From a virus, in IMG/VR virus record IMGVR_UViG_3300044730_000471, positions 1-37,811 of that record: a stretch of DNA of 37,811 bases; one strand, 5' to 3'. How positions within the stretch are numbered: position 1 is the stretch's first letter; each line of letters begins with the position of its first letter. Shown one piece after another: positions 2,662 to 35,108 of this stretch. The notes beneath the pieces are model-generated. The model had not been told where the DNA came from, ran no database searches, and saw only the letters and a list, made by a program, of their open reading frames with translations. Position numbers and translations under genes: made by a program.

Positions 2662-3164
2662 GCTCCCAGTTGTTTATTGATTTGCTCGATTATTAATTCC
2701 TCATGTTTACGCAAAAACGCTTGTTCTTCTTCTTCCGTTGGTTCGAATATAATACCATAACCTCTGAAAGAATCGTAACGCGGGTTTACCTCTTTACCGA
2801 ATTGTAAGCCCTGAGCCTTTAAATATTCGCGTTCCTCTAACATTAAAGCGGCGGTTAAACCTTGCTCGAGTATAGGCTCGGTTGAAAAATTACGACGTAA
2901 AAAACCCGTTAACTCTAAAGGGTTGTTTCTTATCTTTTTTTTGGATGTGTAGCCGGGCGAATAAGGTGTTTCATAATTACCGCCACGCCTTGCGGGTAAT
3001 GGTATCTTTTGACCCGCCGTATTTAAGTAACCGCCCGAGGCTTCAAAGATTCGAATACGCATTAACCTTTTTAATTCTTCAAGTGCTTCATAAAGCGGCG
3101 TAAAGTCTGATAGCCATTCGTTATAAATCGCTTTAAGCCTTTTATCGACCTCCTGTGGACTCAT
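2658..3164 (-). CDS. Putative head-tail connector / tail completion protein
   Basis: This 168-residue, charged, mostly helical protein has a basic central stretch (residues about 55-80) and an acidic C terminus rich in Glu. It overlaps the upstream structural gene and the downstream fibre gene by 4 nt each, so the three are translationally coupled. Size, charge and position after capsid genes fit neck or tail-completion proteins, but I see no diagnostic motif. The assignment is by context only. Confidence 0.6.
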   Translation of the reverse strand: MSPQEVDKRLKAIYNEWLSDFTPLYEALEELKRLMRIRIFEASGGYLNTAGQKIPLPARRGGNYETPYSPGYTSKKKIRNNPLELTGFLRRNFSTEPILEQGLTAALMLEEREYLKAQGLQFGKEVNPRYDSFRGYGIIFEPTEEEEQAFLRKHEELIIEQINKQLGA

Positions 3165-4207
3165 GGCAGCGCCGTAACGTATTTAATGTTTTTACGGCAA
3201 TCGAAGCAATGGTTATCGTCAGGTAATCGCATATTTTGAAGCATTGCCGTTAACTCATTATTGTATTGGTCGGCTGCAATATCGCGAGCCGCTACGATAC
3301 CCTCAAAGGCAGCCGCCGTTGCAAATGGTTTGTTACCTTTATTTACAAATACCGTAGTGTTCGCCCGTTGGTTAGGACTAACCGTTAGCGCGTAGTTATA
3401 TATTTCCACAGCCGTAGCGTATGCCAAAGCTAAACTCATTTGATTACCTATTGAACACAACCAGCCGCGACGGTCGCAGCTTACCGAGTAATTTAAACTC
3501 ATTCCCGTTGTGTACTTATTGTTTGAACTACTTAACACGCTTACGCCGTCGGTTGTTAGGTTAATGCCTATTGCATCGACAAACGGGCAAATATGCGCCT
3601 CACGAACCGCGCCGCCGCAATCATAGCAACTGCCCTTTTTTGGAATGAATTTAACCGTGTTCATAGTCGATTCATAAACAAAAGCTAAATCCAACTTGCG
3701 GCGCTTTGCTGCGAACTCCTTACCGATATAATACTCGATGCCGCCCGCCGTATACGTTATTGTATCAATTAGCTGAAGCGTAGTCATATCGAAAACCAAT
3801 ATCGGTACGTTGGTATTACTCGAGTCAATTGCGAGCGTTAAATCGCTTATAAATAGGTTTAGATAGCTTAACGTGTTCGGGCTTATCTTTACACGAATGC
3901 CGCCGTAATTACCAGCGCCTAACGCGGTTTGAATGTTAGCGTAATCGGTAACAACTTGACCTACCCTTTTCGATTCGATAATAGTATCGGCTTTCATCAT
4001 TGGGCTAAGCCGCGTTAGAACGTCGCTGCTAAGTTTCTTCCATGCAAAGGCGCGTTTATCCTCGAATAGTTCAACCCCGTTATCATATTGGTCGGTTATT
4101 AGCTGTCCTAAAAAGGTGTTATTTATACCGAGTTCGTCGATATATAAGCCCGTCGTAGGTTCTGCGACGTTGCAATCGCGTAAGCCCAAAAGTGATTCGT
4201 AGCACAT
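3161..4207 (-). CDS. Putative virion structural protein, cysteine-rich
   Basis: This 348-residue protein is first in the transcript after the capsid terminator. It has about ten cysteines, including the N-terminal MCYESLLGLRDC, a CYDCGG pair near residue 195 and CFDCRKN near the C terminus. The paired CxxC motifs suggest disulfides or a metal site. Three other virion-type genes here also begin with cysteine-rich segments. A TATCTTTG promoter element ends only 4 nt before the ATG, so its mRNA may be almost leaderless. A head-tail connector or tail-tube role is possible. No family assigned. Confidence 0.65.
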   Translation of the reverse strand: MCYESLLGLRDCNVAEPTTGLYIDELGINNTFLGQLITDQYDNGVELFEDKRAFAWKKLSSDVLTRLSPMMKADTIIESKRVGQVVTDYANIQTALGAGNYGGIRVKISPNTLSYLNLFISDLTLAIDSSNTNVPILVFDMTTLQLIDTITYTAGGIEYYIGKEFAAKRRKLDLAFVYESTMNTVKFIPKKGSCYDCGGAVREAHICPFVDAIGINLTTDGVSVLSSSNNKYTTGMSLNYSVSCDRRGWLCSIGNQMSLALAYATAVEIYNYALTVSPNQRANTTVFVNKGNKPFATAAAFEGIVAARDIAADQYNNELTAMLQNMRLPDDNHCFDCRKNIKYVTALP

Positions 4208-4211
4208 AGGA

Positions 4212-4219
4212 CAAAGATA
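4212..4219 (-). promoter_or_regulatory. Bacteroidota-type -7 element, near-leaderless
   Basis: TATCTTTG on the minus strand fits TAnnTTTG and ends 4 nt before the ATG at 4207. The -33 box would fall inside the preceding terminator hairpin and only a TTTA is present there. It would restart transcription just after the capsid terminator. Confidence 0.5.
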
Positions 4220-4246
4220 AAAAAAAAGAGGGGTAATAAACCCCTC
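4219..4246 (-). terminator. Intrinsic terminator after the capsid gene
   Basis: On the minus strand GAGGGG (4246-4241) pairs with CCCCTC (4233-4228) over a short AT loop and is followed by a run of nine T. It lies directly after the TGA of the capsid -1 frame extension at 4247-4249, so the extension reading frame fills the whole space between the capsid stop and this terminator. Confidence 0.88.
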
Positions 4247-4336
4247 TCATTCTGTTACAAGATTATCTAATCCATTTTGCGTCAATAGGTCTTCATCGGC
4301 TTGCGATAATAAACCTACCGACGCTATGACGGGTTT
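4247..4336 (-). other. Programmed -1 frameshift signal and 27-codon extension of the major capsid gene
   Basis: The last sense codons of the capsid gene are GTA AAC CCG TCA TAG. A AAC CCG (4336-4330) is a textbook X XXY YYZ slippery heptamer. Five bases later a 12-bp stem begins: GCGTCGGTAGGT (4324-4313) pairs with ACCTATTGACGC (4290-4279), using two G-U pairs, around a 22-nt loop with a smaller 4-bp helix. After a -1 slip, translation continues at GTC (4330) for 27 codons to TGA at 4249-4247. The extension begins VIASVGLLSQADEDLL and ends LDNLVTE. It has no usable start codon of its own. The arrangement parallels T7 gene 10A/10B. Confidence 0.8.
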
Positions 4337-5373
4337 ACAATCTCAATACAGTTTACGTAATTTACGCCTGCGTATTTGTCGCCAGCTTCGTAAATATCGT
4401 CAGGCAATGTTACTAATTTGCCTGTGTGAGTTAATACGATTGACAAATTACCGCAATCGTCCTTCATGGTTAAATCAACTGGCAATCCAGCAGGGGTGAA
4501 GGCAATTGTTTTGCTGTAATTGCTACCCGCTACTGGAGTAATACCCGCGTTCCATTCTGCCATATTGAACGATAACCATTGCATCGCGCCCGCAGTCGTA
4601 GCTAAGTTCTTTAGCTGTGAACCTTGTGCGGCTGCCAAACGTGCGTCGTAAGCGAAGCCGAAACCGTTTTGCTGCGAAATCGCTAACAAGTCGATGCCGA
4701 ACTGAGTGCAGCAACCAGCCTGCACCGCATTAGCATAACGCTGCATCTCAGCGCCACCAAATACCACAGGCGCGCCCGGATAGTTAGCCATGCGTGTAGC
4801 TTGTAGAATATCTGCCAAAGCAAACTCGTTCAATGCTTGACCGCCTGTTTGACGTGTAGCAACGCGTAAACAATCACCGCTAACGGTGTAGTAACCGCTA
4901 ACTTCAGTACCCCATTTGCCGATAGCGGCAACGGCTTGAGTAGCGGCGGCACTTGCTACTTTTCTATCCATTACGTCCATTAAACGCATGATAGACTCGA
5001 GAACGTAACGGCTGTTTTCTTGACAATGACGGGCGATAGCATCAGCCTCAATCAATTGTTCAGCAATGTACGTGTCGGTCGTTTCAAGCGTGTACGTAGT
5101 GGTGCTATCACCGTAATTGTTAGTAGCCGTACAAGTAAGGATATTACCACCTTCTTCTACTTCCGTTTCGGGTAATCGCTGAATCCAACGAGCCTCAACC
5201 GTCTTTAGCTTACCGCGTCCCGGTGAAACCTCTTGACGAATTAATTTTACGTTTTCAGGGGAATTAAGAAATTCGAGAAAGGGCAACTGTTCGCGCTGAC
5301 CTACTTCGATAAAAAGCTCCGAAAGGCTCATTTGCACATTCGGGCATTCGGATAAAATGCGAGAAATTGACAT
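4324..5373 (-). CDS. Major capsid protein
   Basis: This 349-residue protein is assigned as major capsid from its place after portal, MuF-like protein and scaffold, its size, and its mixed alpha/beta composition with alanine-rich helices (about residues 135-160, 185-215, 235-265), as expected of HK97-fold subunits. The N terminus is probably not a processed delta domain, because a separate scaffold gene exists and no protease gene is visible. The 3' end carries a canonical -1 frameshift signal that would yield a minor 375-residue form. No clear promoter was found in 5374-5476; the nearest TTTG-containing element (5419-5426) lacks the TA. It is followed by a strong terminator, which sets it apart as its own transcript end. 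Confidence 0.82.
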   Translation of the reverse strand: MSISRILSECPNVQMSLSELFIEVGQREQLPFLEFLNSPENVKLIRQEVSPGRGKLKTVEARWIQRLPETEVEEGGNILTCTATNNYGDSTTTYTLETTDTYIAEQLIEADAIARHCQENSRYVLESIMRLMDVMDRKVASAAATQAVAAIGKWGTEVSGYYTVSGDCLRVATRQTGGQALNEFALADILQATRMANYPGAPVVFGGAEMQRYANAVQAGCCTQFGIDLLAISQQNGFGFAYDARLAAAQGSQLKNLATTAGAMQWLSFNMAEWNAGITPVAGSNYSKTIAFTPAGLPVDLTMKDDCGNLSIVLTHTGKLVTLPDDIYEAGDKYAGVNYVNCIEIVNPS

Positions 5374-5510: not shown

Positions 5511-5608
5511 CGAAACATTCTTGCGGCTGTTTCGTAAAGGCAAAAAATTAGAACCTAACCGTTCAAATTAGTCCCCGAGATAACCGCAAGTATCTTCGGG
5601 GTTTTTTT
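5511..5608 (+). ncRNA. Small RNA with kissing-loop architecture (RNA1)
   Basis: A consensus promoter lies just upstream and an intrinsic terminator ends the unit, giving a transcript of about 95 nt without an evident ORF. The 5' hairpin is CGAAAC (5511-5516) with GTTTCG (5529-5534). A small GAAC/GTTC hairpin lies at 5551-5564. The terminator hairpin is 5573-5582 with 5591-5601 (one bulged T) followed by seven T. The 5' loop holds CTTGCGG (5520-5526), perfectly complementary to CCGCAAG (5584-5590) in the terminator loop, directly next to the 3' stem strand. A loop-loop pseudoknot is therefore likely. The same layout recurs in RNA2 at 28331-28450. It could be a free RNA or a leader attenuator for the plus-strand block. 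Confidence 0.72.
5573..5608 (+). terminator. Intrinsic terminator of RNA1
   Basis: CCCCGAGATA (5573-5582) pairs with TATCTTCGGGG (5591-5601) with a single bulge, an 8-nt loop and a T7 tract. The loop sequence pairs with the 5' hairpin loop of the same RNA. Confidence 0.85.
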
Positions 5609-5629
5609 ATTCCCTAAAAATAAAATTGA

Positions 5630-5892
5630 GTTCGGTCGGGATAAACTACGGCTGCGAACTTGTAAAAAGTGTTACAGTGGGTATTAGTACCAGCACAGCG
5701 GTGATGCAAAGGAGTGAGCCGCACTACTAATCGGGCTACCGTATGGCTCGTAAAATAGACTCCAACCTAATAAGGCACGGCGACCTGTTAGGCACAGCGT
5801 TCGAAGGATGGCTCCGAAAAGCTATACGAGCGTAACTGTGAAAGGCGTAAAGCGATTAAAAACCGCTTTGGGCTAATCATGCTTTCACAGTT
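5630..5892 (+). ncRNA. Multi-helix structured region upstream of GIY-YIG gene, family unknown
   Basis: This noncoding stretch holds many nested complementarities: GTTCG/CGAAC (5630-5634 with 5655-5659), ATTAGTA/TACTAAT (5683-5689 with 5725-5731) enclosing GCGG/CCGC, GCTCGTA/TACGAGC (5746-5752 with 5825-5831) enclosing a CCTAA/TTAGG hairpin (5766-5792) and a TTCG/CGAA hairpin (5800-5818), and an 11-bp perfect stem AACTGTGAAAG/CTTTCACAGTT (5834-5844 with 5882-5892) enclosing AAAGCG/CGCTTT. Such density suggests a folded RNA or ribozyme. The GIY-YIG gene follows 55 nt later on the same strand, as in mobile introns. I could not map group I P7/S elements, a group II domain V, or tRNA, tmRNA or RNase P features. 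Strand is inferred from the neighbouring gene. Confidence 0.55.
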
Positions 5893-5947
5893 TCTCAGGA
5901 TTCACCAAAAAGCTATACATACTCTTATAAGTTTATTATAATATACT

Positions 5948-6343
5948 ATGGGCTACAAAAAAAATAAAACAAAAAAAAGAGCTTCAACAAAATCTAATAG
6001 GTTAAAGAATTACAACGATGTAAAAGGGTACACAAAAAAAGCTGAGTACCGAACAAAAAAACAATATCACGTTTACGTTTTAGAATGTGAAAACAACGCT
6101 TTCTATGTTGGCATAGCCTTAGATATTGAAAAGCGTTTTGAACAGCATTTAGGCGGCAATGGTGCGAAGTTTACAAAAGAAAACTACCCGACTAAAATTA
6201 TTGAAACAATGCCAACGCATACAATCGAAATAGGGTTGGCTTGTGTATTTGAAAATTACAAAGTTTGTGAGTATAGACGAAAGTACCCAAACCATAAAAT
6301 AGGCGGTGGCTCACGTAAATTAAGTACCGATAGATATAAATAA
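5948..6343 (+). CDS. GIY-YIG homing-type endonuclease
   Basis: This 131-residue protein is the only clear plus-strand gene. A lysine/arginine-rich N terminus (1-38) precedes a GIY-YIG nuclease core: HVYVLECENNAFYVGIALD (about 40-58) supplies the two beta strands with YVY and YVG, and the expected arginine follows in EKRFEQH. A conserved-looking Glu sits in FENYKVCEYRR. It lacks a recognisable separate DNA-binding domain, and the basic N terminus may serve. It sits behind a structured RNA region on the strand opposite to the capsid and scaffold transcripts, which marks the 5.48-6.34 kb block as an insertion. Free-standing or intron-derived homing is the likely role. Confidence 0.82.
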   Translation: MGYKKNKTKKRASTKSNRLKNYNDVKGYTKKAEYRTKKQYHVYVLECENNAFYVGIALDIEKRFEQHLGGNGAKFTKENYPTKIIETMPTHTIEIGLACVFENYKVCEYRRKYPNHKIGGGSRKLSTDRYK

Positions 6344-7055: not shown

Positions 7056-7203
7056 AGTTGCTCTGAATTAATTTATTTTCCAAATATGTTAAAACAACCT
7101 CGAGGGCTTTAGTTAATTGCGATGCTTCTATCATTTCACTATTTAAGCCTTGCCGCCACTCAGCATGATGCTTTAAAATTTTATAGGCTTGCTTTATTGT
7201 CAT
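7042..7203 (-). CDS. Small helical protein (53 aa)
   Basis: This short gene begins MTIKQAYKILKHHAEWRQGL and is predicted all-helical with a basic first helix and the motif EWRQG. The start overlaps the scaffold stop as ATGA (7203-7200) and its end overlaps the next gene by 14 nt, so it is tightly tiled into the transcript. Proteins of this type with a WRxG motif are frequent in Bacteroidota phages, without a known role. Confidence 0.72.
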   Translation of the reverse strand: MTIKQAYKILKHHAEWRQGLNSEMIEASQLTKALEVVLTYLENKLIQSNYATV

Positions 7204-8024
7204 TTAACAAAGAAACGAGGGTTAACGCCTTTAATTCTTTTTTCAGCCTGTGATTCGAGCGGCGGTAAGATAGCCGCGCCTTGCCTGTTTAATGGTTTGC
7301 CCGCGTGAGGGTTCTTTTGAATAATACCTGCCGCCGTTGCTTCGGCAATCAGTACATCGTTAACACCTAAAAACGCGCCCGCCTTATCCTTAGACTTTAA
7401 GCGTTCGCCCGTCTTACGGTCTTTTACTATTGCGTTTCCGTCATCCTCTAAATCAATTATAAACTTTTCGTTTATAGCCGATTTAAAGCCTTTAATAGTA
7501 TACTCGTTCACTGTCGGGTCTAATTTCAATGCACCGAGTTCGCGCTCAAATACACTACTTACCTTAATTGCTTTTTGTTCCTCGGCGGCTTGCGTTTTGT
7601 AGCTTTCGAATTGTGTTAACGCTTCCTGACGTGCCTGTTCAACTTCGCTGTATTTACGCTCGAGCTGTTTGTGTTTCTTTTCCCATTCGGCTACTAACTC
7701 AGCCGCGCCGTTACCAGTTGCTTTTTTCTCCCATTCATCGCGCTGTTTTTCGTATTCTGTTTTAGCGCGTTCGGCTGCGTTGCGAATTACGTCTAAGCTC
7801 TTTTGTTCTTTAAAATCTTCGTCGGTTAACGTAACGCCAAACGGTTCGAATGCACGCTTTACAACGTTCGCTATCGAGCCGTTAAGTTTACCGAGCGTCG
7901 CGGCGTGTTCTTTTTGGTCTATCCAATTCGTTTGAAATTTCTCCTTCGCCGTTTCGAGGCTTTCGGCTTCGTCGAGGTTTAAGAACTTTATCAGCTCCAT
8001 CGCCTCCTCGGGTTTCATTGCCAT
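7200..8024 (-). CDS. Capsid scaffold protein
   Basis: This 274-residue, highly charged protein has a long predicted coiled coil from about residue 85 to 160 (dense E, K, Q, A heptads) and a C-terminal domain with a KPLNRQGAAILPPLESQ linker. Such a layout is typical of gp20-type scaffolds that build the procapsid and then leave. It lies between the MuF-like gene and the capsid gene, as scaffolds do. Upstream, an 85-residue ORF may overlap its first 137 nt. Start at MAMKPEEAMELI fits an AT-rich leader. Confidence 0.8.
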   Translation of the reverse strand: MAMKPEEAMELIKFLNLDEAESLETAKEKFQTNWIDQKEHAATLGKLNGSIANVVKRAFEPFGVTLTDEDFKEQKSLDVIRNAAERAKTEYEKQRDEWEKKATGNGAAELVAEWEKKHKQLERKYSEVEQARQEALTQFESYKTQAAEEQKAIKVSSVFERELGALKLDPTVNEYTIKGFKSAINEKFIIDLEDDGNAIVKDRKTGERLKSKDKAGAFLGVNDVLIAEATAAGIIQKNPHAGKPLNRQGAAILPPLESQAEKRIKGVNPRFFVK

Positions 8025-8671: not shown

Positions 8672-9583
8672 TTAATCAATATACCCCTCAGCTCTTGCGC
8701 GAGCCTTAACCGTTTCGGGAACTTTAGAAGCTGGCACGGGTACTAAAGTATGCCTACACTCCCAACCCCCGCGATTAACGAATATAGTTCTTTCGTCGGT
8801 ATTATCTATTCTACCCGCCCAAGTTCCGTTCCTAATATCGTTTATACCAGCGCTGTTTTCACCGCGCCCCCACGCCTCTATTTCTTTCTTATGGAATATT
8901 TGCCCTTGCCTATGTTCGCAGAACGGGCGCGTAGTTGGTATTTCACCGCCTAAGTATTGAAACCATTGTATACCGATTGCTTCATTAATTGCAGCCGAAT
9001 AACTATTATCTGCGATAGCTTGCGCGGTGCTTGCTACCGTTCTAACATTCCTTAATAATTTGCCGTCGATTTCTTTCGTTCCTATAATCGTTTGGCTTAA
9101 CGCTTTTACCGCTTGATTAAGCGGCGCTCGTGCGGCTACGTTTGCCGTTAGCTGCTCTAAAAACGGCTGCGATACAACTTGCCTTAATCCACTACCGAAA
9201 AAAGAATTAATTGCGTTCTGCTGGCTTATTTGGACTAAACGCCGTTGCGCTTCGGTAGGCTCAAAACCAGCCTCAAACTTTTGCGCTATTTCAGTAGATA
9301 GGTTTACGCCTTCTTGAATTTGACTTAGGAACTTTGAAACCGCATCCTTGTATTCGCCACCCGCTAAAACCTTATTGAGTTCATCGGCTATTAATCCGAT
9401 TCGATTTATGTTGGCATCCGTTTGAGTTATATTCCCGTCGCTATCAACGTCCATATCGCGAAGCAACGGCTCAACGGTTCGCCACGCGTCGAGTTGCGCA
9501 CGTTCCGCGCTGGTCGCCATATCCTTCGGTATCTGTTCAAATAACCGAATCTTTTTCTTAATCAGTTCGTCAAGCGATGCCAT
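8672..9583 (-). CDS. MuF-like minor head protein
   Basis: This 303-residue protein has a long helical N-terminal part and a C-terminal MuF-like signature: TTRPFCEHRQGQIFHKKEI (about 220-238), an internal NGTWAG stretch, and GGWECRHTLVPV (about 272-283). The paired Cys/His residues are typical of the phage head morphogenesis domain, which acts next to the portal in capsid assembly or is injected. Its start overlaps the portal stop by 14 nt, the usual portal-MuF order. Confidence 0.87.
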   Translation of the reverse strand: MASLDELIKKKIRLFEQIPKDMATSAERAQLDAWRTVEPLLRDMDVDSDGNITQTDANINRIGLIADELNKVLAGGEYKDAVSKFLSQIQEGVNLSTEIAQKFEAGFEPTEAQRRLVQISQQNAINSFFGSGLRQVVSQPFLEQLTANVAARAPLNQAVKALSQTIIGTKEIDGKLLRNVRTVASTAQAIADNSYSAAINEAIGIQWFQYLGGEIPTTRPFCEHRQGQIFHKKEIEAWGRGENSAGINDIRNGTWAGRIDNTDERTIFVNRGGWECRHTLVPVPASKVPETVKARARAEGYID

Positions 9584-11480
9584 TTAATAAATCGCGTTGC
9601 GCGGTTTGTATCGGGTCTAATTGCTCACGCACCTTCGAGGCTGCAATGTTTCTAAGCGCCACGACTTGCTCTTGTTGCGGTAAATCTGTAAACCTCGGGG
9701 CTTCCTCTGTTGGGATATAGTTACGGATTAATTCCATTACTAACTGAGGGGCGCTAAAGTGTAACACGTCCTGCCATTTTTCAACCGTACCGTTTGCAAC
9801 CCTCGCAGCAATATCGGCGCTACTCATTAGCAAAAGTTCGTCGGCGTTTATAATCAAATCATAAACCGCGCTCGTTTCTTCGTCTGTGTAGTGGATTGCC
9901 TTAATGTAATTGTAAACGTTTGAGAAAGTAACCGAAGGCGGAACACCCGCCGCGATACCTTCACCGATTACAGCTAAATAATCGCTCGGTGTGCTTACAT
10001 CAAAGGTCGTAGGATATACCAACGTAACACCCCCGAATAAGTCGCCGTAACGCATTTTACCTGTCGTTACAAGTATAAACTCATACAAACTAAATAGCTG
10101 GTCTGAAATAGGCTTTAAAAACGCATATAAGCTACGCATCTTGTTTAAGCTACCCGTAGCGGTTACGCCCTCGCCAACGCCTACCGAACTATCGCTCGTT
10201 GGTAGGTGTAAAATTGCGCGGGCTTTTTTCATTTGGTTATCTATTTCAACGCGCAAAAAGTTCAGCGTATCCATAGGAGGCGAAACGAATTTTAAGTATT
10301 CGCCACTTATACCGCTATCACCTTCGCTTACCGAGGTCTTAGGCTTAATCAAAAGCATACCCGTAGGGCTAAAACGCGACTTTAAACCGCCACCGCTACA
10401 CGAGGGGCAAGTGCGATAACCGCCGTTAATAGGGTCGAATATTTGACCGTCTACGCACTTATTACCTTCGCGGTCGATAAAGTCGCAAACCTCGCCTAAC
10501 GCAACCATAAAAGGAAATGCGCTCGTTGCTTTGCTTATTTGTAAATAACTTTCATCGAGTACGACTTGGTCTAAGAAAGGCACGGCGGTAATGAACGGAG
10601 ATTGAAATGCGATTTCGTCGTTAATGAGCTGTGGCGTACCCATTAGCTTATGGCATGGAACGTAGCCCAAATTATGCTGAAAGTAAAGCACGGGTTCGCT
10701 AAATTCCATATCGGACTTTTTACCAGTTTGGTAAATCTTCCAAATATTAGTATCGTCGTAAAGCTCTAAAACGATACCGCTTTTTTCCATCTTAGAACCG
10801 CTTTTTACATTGCTGTAATCGTCGGTTATAACAAGATAGTATTCGCCGAAACTTTGCCCTACAATCGACTTACAGGAATAGTAATGCGGCATCGGCTTTA
10901 GAAGCTCGTTGCTTATAACCTCGCTGTCGTCGCTTTCATCAGTTACCGTTTCAACATCCTCGGGTTCAACTGCGATAATGCCGTTCGGGTCTACCAGCTT
11001 TAAAGTCGGTAGCATCGTTTTAACGAACGCCTCTACGCTGCCAAATTTCTTTATTTCCTCGTTAACGAAACGCTGGAAACTATCTTCGCCGAAACGTTCA
11101 TCTAACTCAGGGAAATATTTAATACTCCAATTTTGGTCTGCGAATGCACGGCTTACCGTCGCTTTAAAATCCTCGAATACGCTTAAGGTAGTGGGCTTAT
11201 AATTAGCCTTAATGTATTGAGCCTGAACGTCGGTTTGGTTCGGGGCGCGAACACTAAGTAAATGTTCGGGGTAAATATCGGGGCGTGTATGCGGCAAAAT
11301 ACTATCGTACATCTTAGCCGAATAGTTATACCCGTCCCAATACTCGGGGTACTGACTTACGCCTTGCCGCTGTTTGCTTACGGGGTTTATCGGAGAGCTG
11401 CGACTCGCTTCGCTCCACGTTTTAAACTTAGCCGCAAAACGATTTACTACTTTCTCGATTTCCTCGGGTGTCAATGCCAT
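9570..11480 (-). CDS. Portal protein
   Basis: This 636-residue protein forms the dodecameric portal through which DNA is packaged. Evidence is its size, the position before the MuF-like gene, and the SPP1/HK97-like course with an N-terminal helical part and a long C-terminal alpha-helical wing (residues about 480-636). Unusually, a cysteine cluster occurs near residues 330-365: EVCDFIDREGNKC and later YRTCPSCSGGG, which resembles a zinc ribbon in the clip or wing region. The start codon shares its A with the TAA of the preceding 25-codon ORF (TAATG). Confidence 0.85.
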   Translation of the reverse strand: MALTPEEIEKVVNRFAAKFKTWSEASRSSPINPVSKQRQGVSQYPEYWDGYNYSAKMYDSILPHTRPDIYPEHLLSVRAPNQTDVQAQYIKANYKPTTLSVFEDFKATVSRAFADQNWSIKYFPELDERFGEDSFQRFVNEEIKKFGSVEAFVKTMLPTLKLVDPNGIIAVEPEDVETVTDESDDSEVISNELLKPMPHYYSCKSIVGQSFGEYYLVITDDYSNVKSGSKMEKSGIVLELYDDTNIWKIYQTGKKSDMEFSEPVLYFQHNLGYVPCHKLMGTPQLINDEIAFQSPFITAVPFLDQVVLDESYLQISKATSAFPFMVALGEVCDFIDREGNKCVDGQIFDPINGGYRTCPSCSGGGLKSRFSPTGMLLIKPKTSVSEGDSGISGEYLKFVSPPMDTLNFLRVEIDNQMKKARAILHLPTSDSSVGVGEGVTATGSLNKMRSLYAFLKPISDQLFSLYEFILVTTGKMRYGDLFGGVTLVYPTTFDVSTPSDYLAVIGEGIAAGVPPSVTFSNVYNYIKAIHYTDEETSAVYDLIINADELLLMSSADIAARVANGTVEKWQDVLHFSAPQLVMELIRNYIPTEEAPRFTDLPQQEQVVALRNIAASKVREQLDPIQTAQRDLLNGIA

Positions 11481-20628: not shown

Positions 20629-21113
20629 AAAAAATCGTGCGACCCCTCCTCTGCCATCGCTTCAAATAGTTTTAGTTTCGATTGGTGAATATCTGGATTA
20701 ATAACCGCGGGGTTTTCGTCCGAACGTATTACCCACGTTGCGGCAATGTTCAACAATAGGTCGCGGTGTATTACCGTATTTTGCCTTTCACGGATTACGT
20801 GTATGTATGTAGCAACTAAAGCGGCGTTGCGTGGGTTCGTTAAACCAGCGCCTAAAGCCTTTTCCATTTCGGTTAGTATTGCTTCCATTTCAGAACCCGA
20901 TAAACCGCTACTCAAGCGCTCAAGTAAACTCATGCTCATGGCAAAGCGTTCGAGTGGTAACGATGTTTCTTTAGGGAATCGATAGTAGCTAAAGCCGTCC
21001 TTTGTGAATAGTTGTACTAAGTTGTATTTCGGTAGTTCGGGGTTTGCCTTATTGCGCGAAAAAATTAATCGCAGTCGCGCGCCTAATTTGCTGAATGATG
21101 TGGTCAATGTCAT
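20451..21113 (-). CDS. Tail assembly chaperone, short form (G-like)
   Basis: This 220-residue helical protein lies directly before the tape measure, as G-type chaperones do. In its own frame it ends in a lysine/serine-rich tail. A run of seven T at codons 160-162 (GAT TTT TTT) permits a -1 shift into the overlapping T frame. The start region overlaps the preceding 87-residue gene by 65 nt. Not part of the virion if it behaves like its counterparts. Confidence 0.78.
   Translation of the reverse strand: MTLTTSFSKLGARLRLIFSRNKANPELPKYNLVQLFTKDGFSYYRFPKETSLPLERFAMSMSLLERLSSGLSGSEMEAILTEMEKALGAGLTNPRNAALVATYIHVIRERQNTVIHRDLLLNIAATWVIRSDENPAVINPDIHQSKLKLFEAMAEEGSHDFFTGLDIEPLKPLLRLSPEELTTLWDYNRVQIQKLHETLAALSSHRDEGQSKRKTSSANK
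20628..20634 (-). other. Slippery heptamer T7 for G/GT frameshift
   Basis: Codons GAT TTT TTT ACA give T TTT TTT in the X XXY YYZ register of the G-like frame. After a -1 slip the next codon is TAC (20628-20626) and the T frame is open for 95 codons. No strong stimulatory stem was found just downstream. Confidence 0.72.
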
Positions 21114-21312
21114 TGTTTACTTTTATGATGCTACCGCTACGTAGCTGTATTATGCAGTTTTCATCTTCGCCGCTGAATACGTGGCTTATATCGTTTACGT
21201 TAACGAGAACCTCAACAAACCCAATATCGCGCTCACTTAATTCGCGTAGGGTTTCATCCTCGGTATCGAGCGATTCGGTCAGGAACGCCTGGCAGAGGAT
21301 GAACCCAGTCAT
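21049..21312 (-). CDS. Small tail-module protein (87 aa)
   Basis: I prefer the ATG at 21312 (MTGFILCQAF), which lies 2 nt after the TAG of the preceding gene. An earlier in-frame ATG at 21339 would overlap that gene. The C-terminal half (CIIQLRSGSIIKVNNDIDHI) resembles small beta-hairpin proteins with a turn such as LRSGSxIxV. Function unknown. It overlaps the chaperone start. Confidence 0.65.
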   Translation of the reverse strand: MTGFILCQAFLTESLDTEDETLRELSERDIGFVEVLVNVNDISHVFSGEDENCIIQLRSGSIIKVNNDIDHIIQQIRRATAINFFAQ

Positions 21313-21314
21313 AT

Positions 21315-21533
21315 CTAACTCCAATAGTCGTGCGGGCATTCTGCATCTTTAACCCGCGTCTTAGCGGGTAGAAAACAACCGCACGCCGTACAAAGGTTTA
21401 AAGCCTTATTGCGATGCTGGCATAGGTTACAAATAGGCGTTCGCGTTTCGCTTAACTCGTTTGCTTCCTTGTTCGATGTTACCCAAAGATACCAGCCGTG
21501 AATTATTGATTTTATCCGTTGCATTCTACGCAT
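21315..21533 (-). CDS. Small zinc-ribbon protein (72 aa)
   Basis: The C-terminal half holds ICNLCQHRNKALNLCTACGC and later DAECPHDYW, with CxxC pairs that fit a zinc ribbon; the N-terminal part is basic and helical. Proteins with the ending CGC-(x)n-KxR-(x)n-CPxxxW are frequent in tail regions of Bacteroidota phages. It overlaps the upstream gene by 22 nt. Confidence 0.75.
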   Translation of the reverse strand: MRRMQRIKSIIHGWYLWVTSNKEANELSETRTPICNLCQHRNKALNLCTACGCFLPAKTRVKDAECPHDYWS

Positions 21534-21865
21534 TCCATTAAGTTAACTACTTCGGGTTCTTCGCTTATTATTTCAATGTTCGCCACGCTAAAGCTAATGC
21601 AGTCGTATTCCACTTCACAAATCGTAAACTTATTGCACCCAGCTAACTCGAGCGTATAGCCCTGCCCGTTATCTATCTTAGCGCCCGTAATGGTTAACAG
21701 CCCGTCAATATCGGATTCTGCGTTAAACACTTGCAGCTTATTCGTGGCATTGCTCTTTAACGTTATTGTGTAGTTAGTTTCGGGTTCTACAAATCCGAAC
21801 GCTATACCGCCATTACAGTAAGCTACTTGAATGCCTGAATCGAAACAAGGAGAACAAACGCTCAT
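21512..21865 (-). CDS. Small cysteine-rich virion-type protein (117 aa)
   Basis: This 117-residue beta-rich protein has eight cysteines, including MSVCSPCFDSG at the start and LMECVECNG at the end. It follows the terminase gene with a 4-nt overlap (ATGA) and precedes the tail chaperones, where a tail tube or tail terminator is often found. It is small for a tube protein. No family recognised. Confidence 0.6.
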   Translation of the reverse strand: MSVCSPCFDSGIQVAYCNGGIAFGFVEPETNYTITLKSNATNKLQVFNAESDIDGLLTITGAKIDNGQGYTLELAGCNKFTICEVEYDCISFSVANIEIISEEPEVVNLMECVECNG

Positions 21866-23178
21866 AGGTATCTTTTAAGTATTGCGTTTACAAAGTAACG
21901 AAAACAATCTAAAAAGTCGGCACGCTCAGAAATGTTTTTTCGATTGCTCTTTATTATTTGCCCTTCAGCGTTGCATTGCACTTGCTTAGCATCAAAAACA
22001 AAGCCCTTACAATTTTTACTATTAACGCGTATATCGAGTTTCTTTAGCGCGGTATTGCAATCAATACGGCTGTTAACGTGGCGCGGGTTTGCTGGTATTA
22101 TAATTTGGTTATCGGCTAACTTGAGGCGGCGTTTAATCTGAATGTAAGCGCTCGAGTTATCGCGCTCCTGTATTGTACCGCCTTTGCCCATTGCGTCGCC
22201 CGTTATGCGTATTAAGCCCGTTGGTATGTTCAATGCTTCGACCGCATCGCAGAACGCGTCTATCGAACCGCGCTCTATCTTTATTTCATCCACTACGGTA
22301 GCCGTGCTTCCAACGTTTTGAATAATCAAAGCGCATAACGGGTTAATATTGAAATCGACGCTTATAAACGTCGGTAAGTGCGCGTTGTGCGTTACACTAT
22401 CATCGATGTGCTTTTCGTCGCTCCAAGCGTATAGGAACGGGTTAGCAACGTCATCGAGTACATCCCAATCACCCTCGACAAATCGAGCGTATTGAATAGG
22501 TGGTAATTCCTTTAGCGCTTCGAGGTATTCAGGCGCGATGTGTGGGTTATCAGTTATACGGCTCGGTATGTAAGCCCAACGTTCGGGTAATGTGTTTTCG
22601 CGGTAACGGTTGTATATAATCGACTTAACCCAGTTTTGAGCAGGGTTGCACGTTGCGAGGCAAACGATAGGCGGCTTGCCGTGTGCCTTATTCCATGAGC
22701 CTATACGTTCCTGAACTTTGTAGAATGTTACTTCCTGTAATTCGTTTACTTCATCTAAGCCCGCGCCGTTAATCTCTAAACCTCGAAAGCGGTTAAGGTC
22801 TTTATCGTCGTCGAAACTTTCTGCCATAAACATAAGCTCCGAACCGTTTGTAAATGTTATAACGTTTGTTTCCCTATTCCAGTTCTTAACATAACTACTT
22901 ACGCCGTCCATCATTATCGAGGCAAAGCTCGGGAACGTGGTACGCTTTAAGTCGGGTAGGCTTTTACGAATAACCGCCCATCGGCTGCGCGGGTATGTTA
23001 AACAAAGCGATGTTAGTGTTAAAAGTAACCAATACGTTTTCCCGCCGCGAATCTTTGCCCCCACCCTTTCGAGCAGGGGCGGTTATCGTATAGCGCCCCC
23101 GAAGACAATTACTCTTTTGTCCCCGTTGGTCGCCATATCGAAGGCTGTTGTTTGTGTTTCAGTTAGCGTAAATTGCAT
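21862..23178 (-). CDS. terL: Terminase large subunit, interrupted in the Walker A codons
   Basis: The gene starts at 23178 (MQFTLTETQTTAF) and reads to DKRVIVFGGAIR, beta strand 1 plus the first half of the P-loop. It then meets TAA (23085-23083). The same frame resumes GGKTYWLL at 23046 and runs to 21862 with Walker B AGLDEVNE, nuclease motif ISVDFNINP, RITGDAMG and DFLDCFRYF. Removing 39 nt joins GGAIR to GGKT, a perfect GxxxxGKT, in a 425-residue protein of normal length. A GTG at 23064 could only start a 400-residue form that lacks the P-loop strand and the first P-loop glycine. I expect translational bypassing, or else a defective gene or a sequence error. Confidence 0.85.
23047..23088 (-). 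other. Candidate translational bypass element in terL
   Basis: Take-off codon CGA (23088-23086) is followed by TAA, then CCGCCC (23082-23077) pairing with GGGTGG (23066-23061) in a hairpin right after the stop. The landing codon would be CGC (23049-23047), readable by the same arginine tRNA if its anticodon is ICG, and decoding resumes at GGC. The gap is 39 nt counting the landing codon. The element lies in the most conserved codons of the gene, beside a homing endonuclease gene. T4 gene 60 has the same parts: matched codons, stop in a hairpin, linked endonuclease mobA. Confidence 0.65.
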
Positions 23179-34412: not shown

Positions 34413-34527
34413 GGCATTTCGCGTTTTCGTTTAGTATTGCTTTTGCAACGTTTGGCGGCATTTCGCGCTCGGTTAGGTAAATCTTTAGAACCTTTATGAG
34501 CCGCTTATCGATTTGCTTATCATTCAT
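34369..34527 (-). CDS. Small helical protein (52 aa)
   Basis: Reads MNDKQIDKRLIKVLKIYLTE and continues REMPPNVAKAILNENAKCRE, an all-helical basic protein. The start overlaps the stop of the PAS-HisKA gene as ATGA (34527-34524) and the end overlaps the next gene by 44 nt. It may be co-translated with the PAS-HisKA protein and act with it. No family recognised. Confidence 0.65.
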   Translation of the reverse strand: MNDKQIDKRLIKVLKIYLTEREMPPNVAKAILNENAKCRERIEKYIVELRLA

Positions 34528-35108
34528 ATTTGGCGCGTTGCTTTTTTTACTAATGTACGCACGGCTTCGTCCAAATTTACAACCGATTCCTCTAACATTC
34601 GCAAAAGGTCGTCGCGTTCCTTTTCGGATATTGATTTATTGCCGCTAATTAGCTTTACCAAACCACTAACCGAGGTTAACGGTTGCCGTAATTCATGCGA
34701 AAGCATAAAACGAAATTCCTCAAGTAGTACCCGTTGTCGTTCGTGTTCATGCGCGCTTATGCTGGTTACATCAACAAGCTGAAAGCCGATAAAATGCACC
34801 GCGCCCATGATTGTGTAAATATTCCAAACGTTAAAGCGCTCAGATAAATTCTTTTGCTTCGTTCGGGCGTAAACCCTCGAGGGTTCGGGCTGTTTGTCTT
34901 TAGCCCTTTTTACGGCTTCTATGAGCGTTTCTTTATCCTCAGGGCTGCTAACTATATCAACTATGTTTTTCGGCTTTATATGGCTTGCGTAATGCTTAAA
35001 AAGTTCGTTAGCGCTTACTATCGTGCCGTCCGATTCGGTAACAACGTAAAATAGGTCTAAAGAATTTTCGAGTATGTACACCGTTGACACGATTGCAAAT
35101 TTAAGCAA
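34524..35108 (-). CDS. PAS-HisKA protein lacking an ATPase domain (truncated histidine kinase)
   Basis: This 194-residue protein has a PAS sensor domain (about 12-115; SLDLFYVVTESDGTIVSANE opens it, HFIGFQLVDVT closes it) and a dimerisation/histidine-phosphotransfer domain with the H-box FRFMLSHELRQPLTSVSGL (His138), followed by the second helix of the pair (SEKERDDLLRMLEESVVNLD). The catalytic ATP-binding domain is absent; the protein stops 15 residues after this helix. It cannot phosphorylate itself alone. It could accept or remove phosphate in a host pathway or pair with a host kinase. It lies within the lysis cluster. A TAAATTTG element overlaps the first codons, so a GTG start at 35090 is possible. 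Confidence 0.85.
   Translation of the reverse strand: MLKFAIVSTVYILENSLDLFYVVTESDGTIVSANELFKHYASHIKPKNIVDIVSSPEDKETLIEAVKRAKDKQPEPSRVYARTKQKNLSERFNVWNIYTIMGAVHFIGFQLVDVTSISAHEHERQRVLLEEFRFMLSHELRQPLTSVSGLVKLISGNKSISEKERDDLLRMLEESVVNLDEAVRTLVKKATRQI

Follow-up and report, generated by a model that had tools for sequence, protein, structure and literature searches.

Organization of the capsid gene end

The DNA analysed here (the window, 37,811 nucleotides, IMG/VR virus record IMGVR_UViG_3300044730_000471) carries on its minus strand a 349-amino-acid gene, probably that of the major capsid protein (hereafter the capsid gene), whose 3' end reads GTA AAC CCG TCA TAG. A -1 frame starting from the AAA CCC of this gene end codes for VIASVGLLSQADEDLLTQNGLDNLVTE over 27 codons and closes with a TGA (4249-4247) that abuts an intrinsic terminator, the latter beginning at the very next base. 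The original prediction placed a canonical -1 frameshift signal at 4247-4336; these coordinates are exact, with the first A of AAACCCG at one end and the TGA at the other, and the strand, which it did not name, is minus for the whole cassette. The features are as follows:

4324..5373, minus strand: zero-frame gene of 349 amino acids, probable major capsid protein, short form (open reading frame; gene order; IMG/VR family)
4330..4336, minus strand: putative slip site A_AAC_CCG (sequence; AAACCC[GA] conservation in relatives)
4325..4329, minus strand: spacer of 5 nt from heptamer to stem (folding; relatives)
4324..4326, minus strand: zero-frame stop TAG (sequence)
4279..4324, minus strand: candidate stimulatory hairpin, with conserved arms 4324-4315 and 4288-4279 (10 bp), longer upward here (z -5.9; compensatory changes)
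4250..4330, minus strand: -1-frame extension of 27 codons, VIASVGLLSQADEDLLTQNGLDNLVTE (pN/pS 0.30; conserved in 96 loci)
4247..4249, minus strand: -1-frame stop TGA (sequence)
4219..4246, minus strand: intrinsic terminator directly after the extension (GAGGGG...CCCCTC and T run; relatives)

The heptamer A AAC CCG at the end of the gene is, as had been claimed, an exact X XXY YYZ, and the -1 frame indeed runs through 27 open codons before reaching a TGA that touches the terminator. The extension was also said to have no start codon of its own, in agreement with the lack of any ATG, GTG or TTG near the beginning of the -1 frame in the window sequence. Because a -1-frame TGA stands four codons before CCC, a shift would be limited to the last few codons of the gene, namely to the stretch GAT TGT AAA CCC GTC ATA, the zero-frame TAG following TCA. 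The terminator (GAGGGG TTTATTA CCCCTC and a T run, 4246-4219, minus strand) is followed by TATCTTTG (4219-4212), and the next gene has its start codon at 4207; a hairpin and T run of similar kind occur downstream in nearly all relatives.

Among the 48 minus-strand ORF ends of the window, that of the capsid gene is the only one where an X_XXY_YYZ site of two different bases stands beside a -1 extension of at least 20 codons; the same scan detected a U-rich heptamer at the end of gene 21049-21339, but with a -1 extension of just 11 codons. The window's only other gene end combining a slip-like site and a long -1 frame is that of 34524-35108 (minus strand), with an A7 run 21 nt before the stop and a 52-codon -1 frame beyond it.

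Identity of the gene and probable host

That the 349-amino-acid gene is the major capsid gene is probable from synteny, size and conservation. The terminase (21862-23064), the portal (9570-11480) and a coiled-coil scaffold-like protein (7200-8024) are followed by this gene, whose product has 38 kDa. No match to the protein was found by tblastn in 50,697 phage records, and profile searches of PDB, PHROGs and Pfam yielded chance matches only. A scan of prokaryote genomes found no relative and, for this reason, offered no provirus or host link. Structure predictions with 20 and with 77 relatives attained pLDDT values of 30 and 35, respectively; these models are unusable, so that the fold search, in which no match appeared, carries no meaning. 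A second protein of no recognised kind, with 348 amino acids, is encoded after the capsid gene (3161-4207).

Among named terminases, the one encoded by Flavobacterium phage 11b is nearest (31% identity); together with the form of a promoter, this makes Bacteroidota bacteria the probable hosts of the present phage. The promoter-like motif is TATCTTTG, a Bacteroidota-type -7 box located directly after the terminator and 4 nt before the ATG of gene 3161-4207; it fits TAnnTTTG, the form of the -7 box in Bacteroidota promoters. Gene 3161-4207 may accordingly be expressed from its own promoter as a leaderless transcript.

Conservation of the heptamer and the extension

The gene family comprises about 200 IMG/VR loci. 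Scans of IMG/VR contigs provided 123 loci distinct in capsid end and flank, and an extra scan from the most distant member mostly recovered the same contigs again. In these metagenomic contigs, where full kinship correction applies to the tree-based pairs described below and not to the locus counts, a -1 extension of 26 or 27 codons is found in 96 of the 123 loci, without a stop in any of the 96. It is absent from the other 27, where a short stretch leads to the terminator or the -1 frame runs into unrelated sequence. The heptamer AAACCC[GA] accompanies the extension: it is present in 93 of 96 loci that have it versus 3 of 27 that lack it (L019, L065 and L317). The expectation that related capsid genes would keep the heptamer and the -1 frame was thus borne out, also by the 24 of 27 loci without extension that have lost the heptamer too.

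In most relatives, the zero-frame stop comes directly after CCR (CCG or CCA); a minority, the window included, have one codon in between (TCA, GCA or TCT), as exemplified by the sense codon after CCG in L010, L030, L042, L052, L284 and L289, among others. The position of the stop therefore varies, and heptamer, spacer and stem are retained. In L132, the heptamer is located six bases upstream, with another CCCG preceding the stop. The sole part of the slip site present in every extension locus is C_CCR. Three loci (L136, L152 and L154) end in GTC CCG TAA and have lost the AAAC half while conserving the -1 tail; in them, any shift must take place on CCG or its neighbour, since the upstream -1 frame is closed by a TAA.

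Codon choice around the heptamer is restricted in extension loci. The Val codon before AAC is always GTA (64) and never GTT, the third base of the preceding Val or Ala codon is always A (AAAC being kept in 93 of 96), and Pro is encoded by CCG or CCA, never by CCT, although 48% of the Pro residues in the gene are encoded by this codon. Loci without the extension often have GTT and CCT at the gene end. None of the relatives has the tail in frame with the capsid gene, although one indel would suffice, which fits selection for a minor form.

A conserved hairpin downstream of the heptamer

The folding energy of a 94-nt stretch is -29 kcal/mol, as compared with -16.2 +/- 3.1 in shuffles (z -4.2), and the 65 nt after the heptamer have a z of -5.9; in both cases no shuffle was as stable. 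The 12-bp stem after a 5-base spacer that had been predicted was recovered. Its supposed 22-nt loop was not: it is mostly paired in the window sequence, since RNA folding extends the stem to 14 bp and adds a 6-bp upper stem with a 5-nt loop.

Covariation was assessed on 20 pairs in 54 relatives of the 27-codon class. Overall, 87.7% of the cells are paired and both sides have changed in 9 pairs, with 70 double-change cells; shuffles had 17.0 +/- 3.8 and controls with a slid partner 2-18. These compensatory changes, among them the replacement of GC by CG in the second pair and of CG by UA in the fifth, and also UA to CG and AU to GC, preserve the lower 10 bp, the upper part being variable across relatives. 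The 26-codon class has its own stem at the same place, and the first paired base lies 5 nt on in 41 of the 62 distinct downstream sequences of extension-bearing loci. Looking in a simple way for conserved pseudoknot partners of the loop gave nothing convincing, the best match being the T run of the terminator. Loci that have the extension and loci that lack it are not distinguished by minimum folding energy alone, as the folded stretch of those without it takes in the terminator hairpin.

Constraint on the -1 frame and nature of the tail

In 54 distinct sequences of 27 codons, the -1 frame has a pN/pS of 0.298, as compared with 1.05 for the 0 frame and 1.72 for the +1 frame, both of which have stops in all 54. 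Column permutations, run on every third sequence, averaged 0.89, with 0.43 as the lowest value, versus 0.31 observed (0 of 200 as low). Since pN/pS is also 0.305 in codons 18-27, downstream of the stem, the constraint is not a by-product of the latter. In its own frame, the capsid gene has pN/pS values of 0.13-0.29 (groups of equal length). Judging from these substitution patterns, the -1 peptide is under purifying selection. Conservation starts right after CCC, and the end of the extension follows the pattern LL(S/T)(Q/E)...D(N/Y)L.(T/S)(E/Q) in the 96 loci.

With a pI of 4.05 and a charge of about -5 at pH 7, the tail is acidic; it contains a loose repeat of 8-9 residues, LL(S/T)(Q/E)xxxD, clearest in the second tail class (LLSEGSDDLLSEGSDNLLTQ). 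A search for it in named phages returned one chance match only. The extension is not an Ig-like domain, its 26-27 residues being too few for one.

Gains, losses and probable exchange of gene ends

On a tree of capsid DNA without the last six codons, the extension undergoes 12 state changes, at least 8 of them on supported branches. Of 8 independent pairs, 6-7 show heptamer and extension going together and 0 show the opposite (sign test, median p 0.031). Sister loci can differ in this respect, L072 having the tail and L073 lacking it, and L219 and L208 forming another such pair. L028 and L029 have a more distant capsid (88%) and a tail peptide identical to that of L018, and gene ends have likely been exchanged as a block by recombination. 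Part of the coupling between heptamer and extension may therefore reflect block transfer. Selection on the slip site itself is still supported by the synonymous choices made there (Val GTA, never GTT; Pro never CCT).

Discussion

The comparative evidence makes it very probable that a phage head gene of the window, which most likely encodes the major capsid protein, carries at its 3' end a cassette for programmed -1 ribosomal frameshifting. A zero-frame X_XXY_YYZ slip site, a downstream RNA structure and a constrained open -1 frame, three features of heptamer-type -1 frameshifting, were found, and in the sequences compared the heptamer, its spacer, the hairpin and the -1 frame show both conservation and coupling. 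In support of the original prediction, the coding constraint in the -1 frame and the compensatory changes in the stem fit programmed -1 frameshifting. Most ribosomes would read AAC CCG (TCA) and stop, producing a subunit of 348-349 amino acids. The hairpin 5 nt downstream of A_AAC_CCG would hold some of them, and a tandem slip by one base would move tRNA-Asn from AAC to AAA and tRNA-Pro from CCG to CCC; slipped ribosomes would translate 27 more codons in the -1 frame, up to the TGA before the terminator. In the virion, a minor share of the capsid subunits would then bear a C-terminal tail of LL(S/T)(Q/E) repeats, acidic in nature (pI about 4). We infer the slip in the host, its efficiency and the small share of extended subunits. 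As for the tail, we favour a putative role in virion-surface or inter-subunit contact by a few subunits, because no relative has it in frame; the surface display or vertex use suggested at first is likewise putative.

The term canonical, used for this signal in the original prediction, holds for its form only. A_AAC_CCG is not known as a strong -1 site, its A-site codon re-pairing through two G-C pairs, and the efficient -1 sites that the portion of PMC5009743 considered here names do not include heptamers with CCC in the A site. In a different reading of the slip, P-site tRNA-Pro moves alone from CCG or CCA to CCC with the stop in the A site, AAAC being protein context only. C_CCR as the one element common to all extension loci, the stop directly next to it in most of them, and the conserved -1 tail behind GTC CCG TAA in L136, L152 and L154 speak for such a single-tRNA slip. 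Against it stand the sense codon before the stop in the window and in the six loci named above, as well as the retention of AAAC in 93 of 96 loci after a Val or Ala codon that always ends in A. As a general explanation it is rather unlikely, even if tRNA-Pro seems, from their gene ends, to slip alone at the stop in the three variants. A broader scenario can be put forward tentatively: the whole family would share a capsid-tail module that has been gained and lost repeatedly, and a tRNA-Pro -1 slip (CCR to CCC) next to or on the stop would set the dose of acidic repeat tail on a few subunits. Members without AAAC would still shift by a single-tRNA slip at C_CCG_UAA with the hairpin, which would parallel, in the -1 direction, the +1 CCC_stop shifts known from Listeria phages.

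Explanations that dispense with frameshifting are far less credible than the tandem slip. The hairpin is strong and the terminator directly follows it, as would suit an RNA element involved only in processing, stability or transcription end, with a -1 frame open by chance; yet this frame is under protein-type constraint also after the stem, is free of stops in 96 loci and is accompanied by the heptamer, which makes this proposal extremely improbable. Hardly any likelihood is left, either, for a tail made by stop readthrough, transcriptional slippage or its own start codon, for which nothing speaks but the open frame. The three routes were rejected as contradicted by the sequence: the 0 frame closes again after the stop in every sequence, the slip site has no long homopolymer, and ATG, GTG and TTG are missing near the -1 frame start in the window, conservation beginning right after CCC. 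Finally, the frameshift could be real and the protein another head or tail protein, in line with the lack of family, PDB or fold matches (the latter searched with unusable models) and with the second 348-amino-acid protein of no recognised kind that follows (3161-4207). The position after the portal and the coiled-coil scaffold-like gene, the 38 kDa size and the strong conservation fit a capsid protein instead, and render this option improbable.

The comparison with T7 gene 10 made at the outset is apt as to mechanism. T7 and T3 differ from the present phage in slip site and tail, the latter being a 27-residue acidic repeat here, Ig-like in T3 and 53 residues long in T7 gene 10; no sequence relation between their capsids and that of this phage was found. 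The likeness lies in a -1 shift close to where the capsid gene ends and in a short main form accompanied by a C-terminally extended one, as described for T7 gene 10A/10B and T3 gene 10 in the sections of PMC5009743 and PMC4283147 used here. Capsid frameshift pairs listed in those of PMC5009743 are T7 and T3 (-1), Listeria A118 and A500 (-1) and Listeria PSA (+1, on a proline codon). The coat protein of A118 and A500 has a capsid-gene -1 frameshift, as proposed here, and in PSA the shift takes place at a Pro codon with a stimulatory structure beside it, as is also proposed here, but in the +1 direction (PMC5009743, same sections). No relation to the three Listeria phages was found, and the present phage has no Ig-like domain. 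In the nematode RNA virus Orsay, a share of capsid subunits carries a frameshift-made C-terminal extension (PMC5009743, same sections); its capsid is unrelated and the parallel is an analogy only. Neither an earlier report of frameshifting for this phage group nor AAACCC as a phage slip site was found in the open-access literature. The type of mechanism is thus already known; what appears new, from the sequences, is its presence in a lineage without a named isolate, the unusual slip site and the tail.

Capsid frameshift extensions are known from few phages and their purpose is largely unsettled. Here, a single family offers about a hundred natural variants, with supported gains and losses, three slip-site variants and two tail classes; this natural series raises the case above routine and makes the job of the minor form and the part of the slip site that is needed directly testable. 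The tail would provide a natural low-copy attachment place for cargo on a phage shell. Gene callers annotating the 0-frame gene alone would miss it.

A structured-RNA-like and GIY-YIG stretch upstream of the capsid gene

Between the scaffold-like gene and the capsid gene, opposite to the strand of these genes, the window contains a stretch (5600-6343, plus strand) made up of a structured-RNA-like part (5600-5930) and a GIY-YIG ORF (5948-6343, Pfam PF01541). It is found upstream of the capsid gene in 6 of the first 80 relatives; its RNA part is 97% identical in four of them and 88-90% in two, with just 71-79% for the GIY-YIG gene. Rfam gave sub-threshold matches only, including HOLDH (21 of 319 bits). 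The stretch is perhaps a mobile RNA or homing element.
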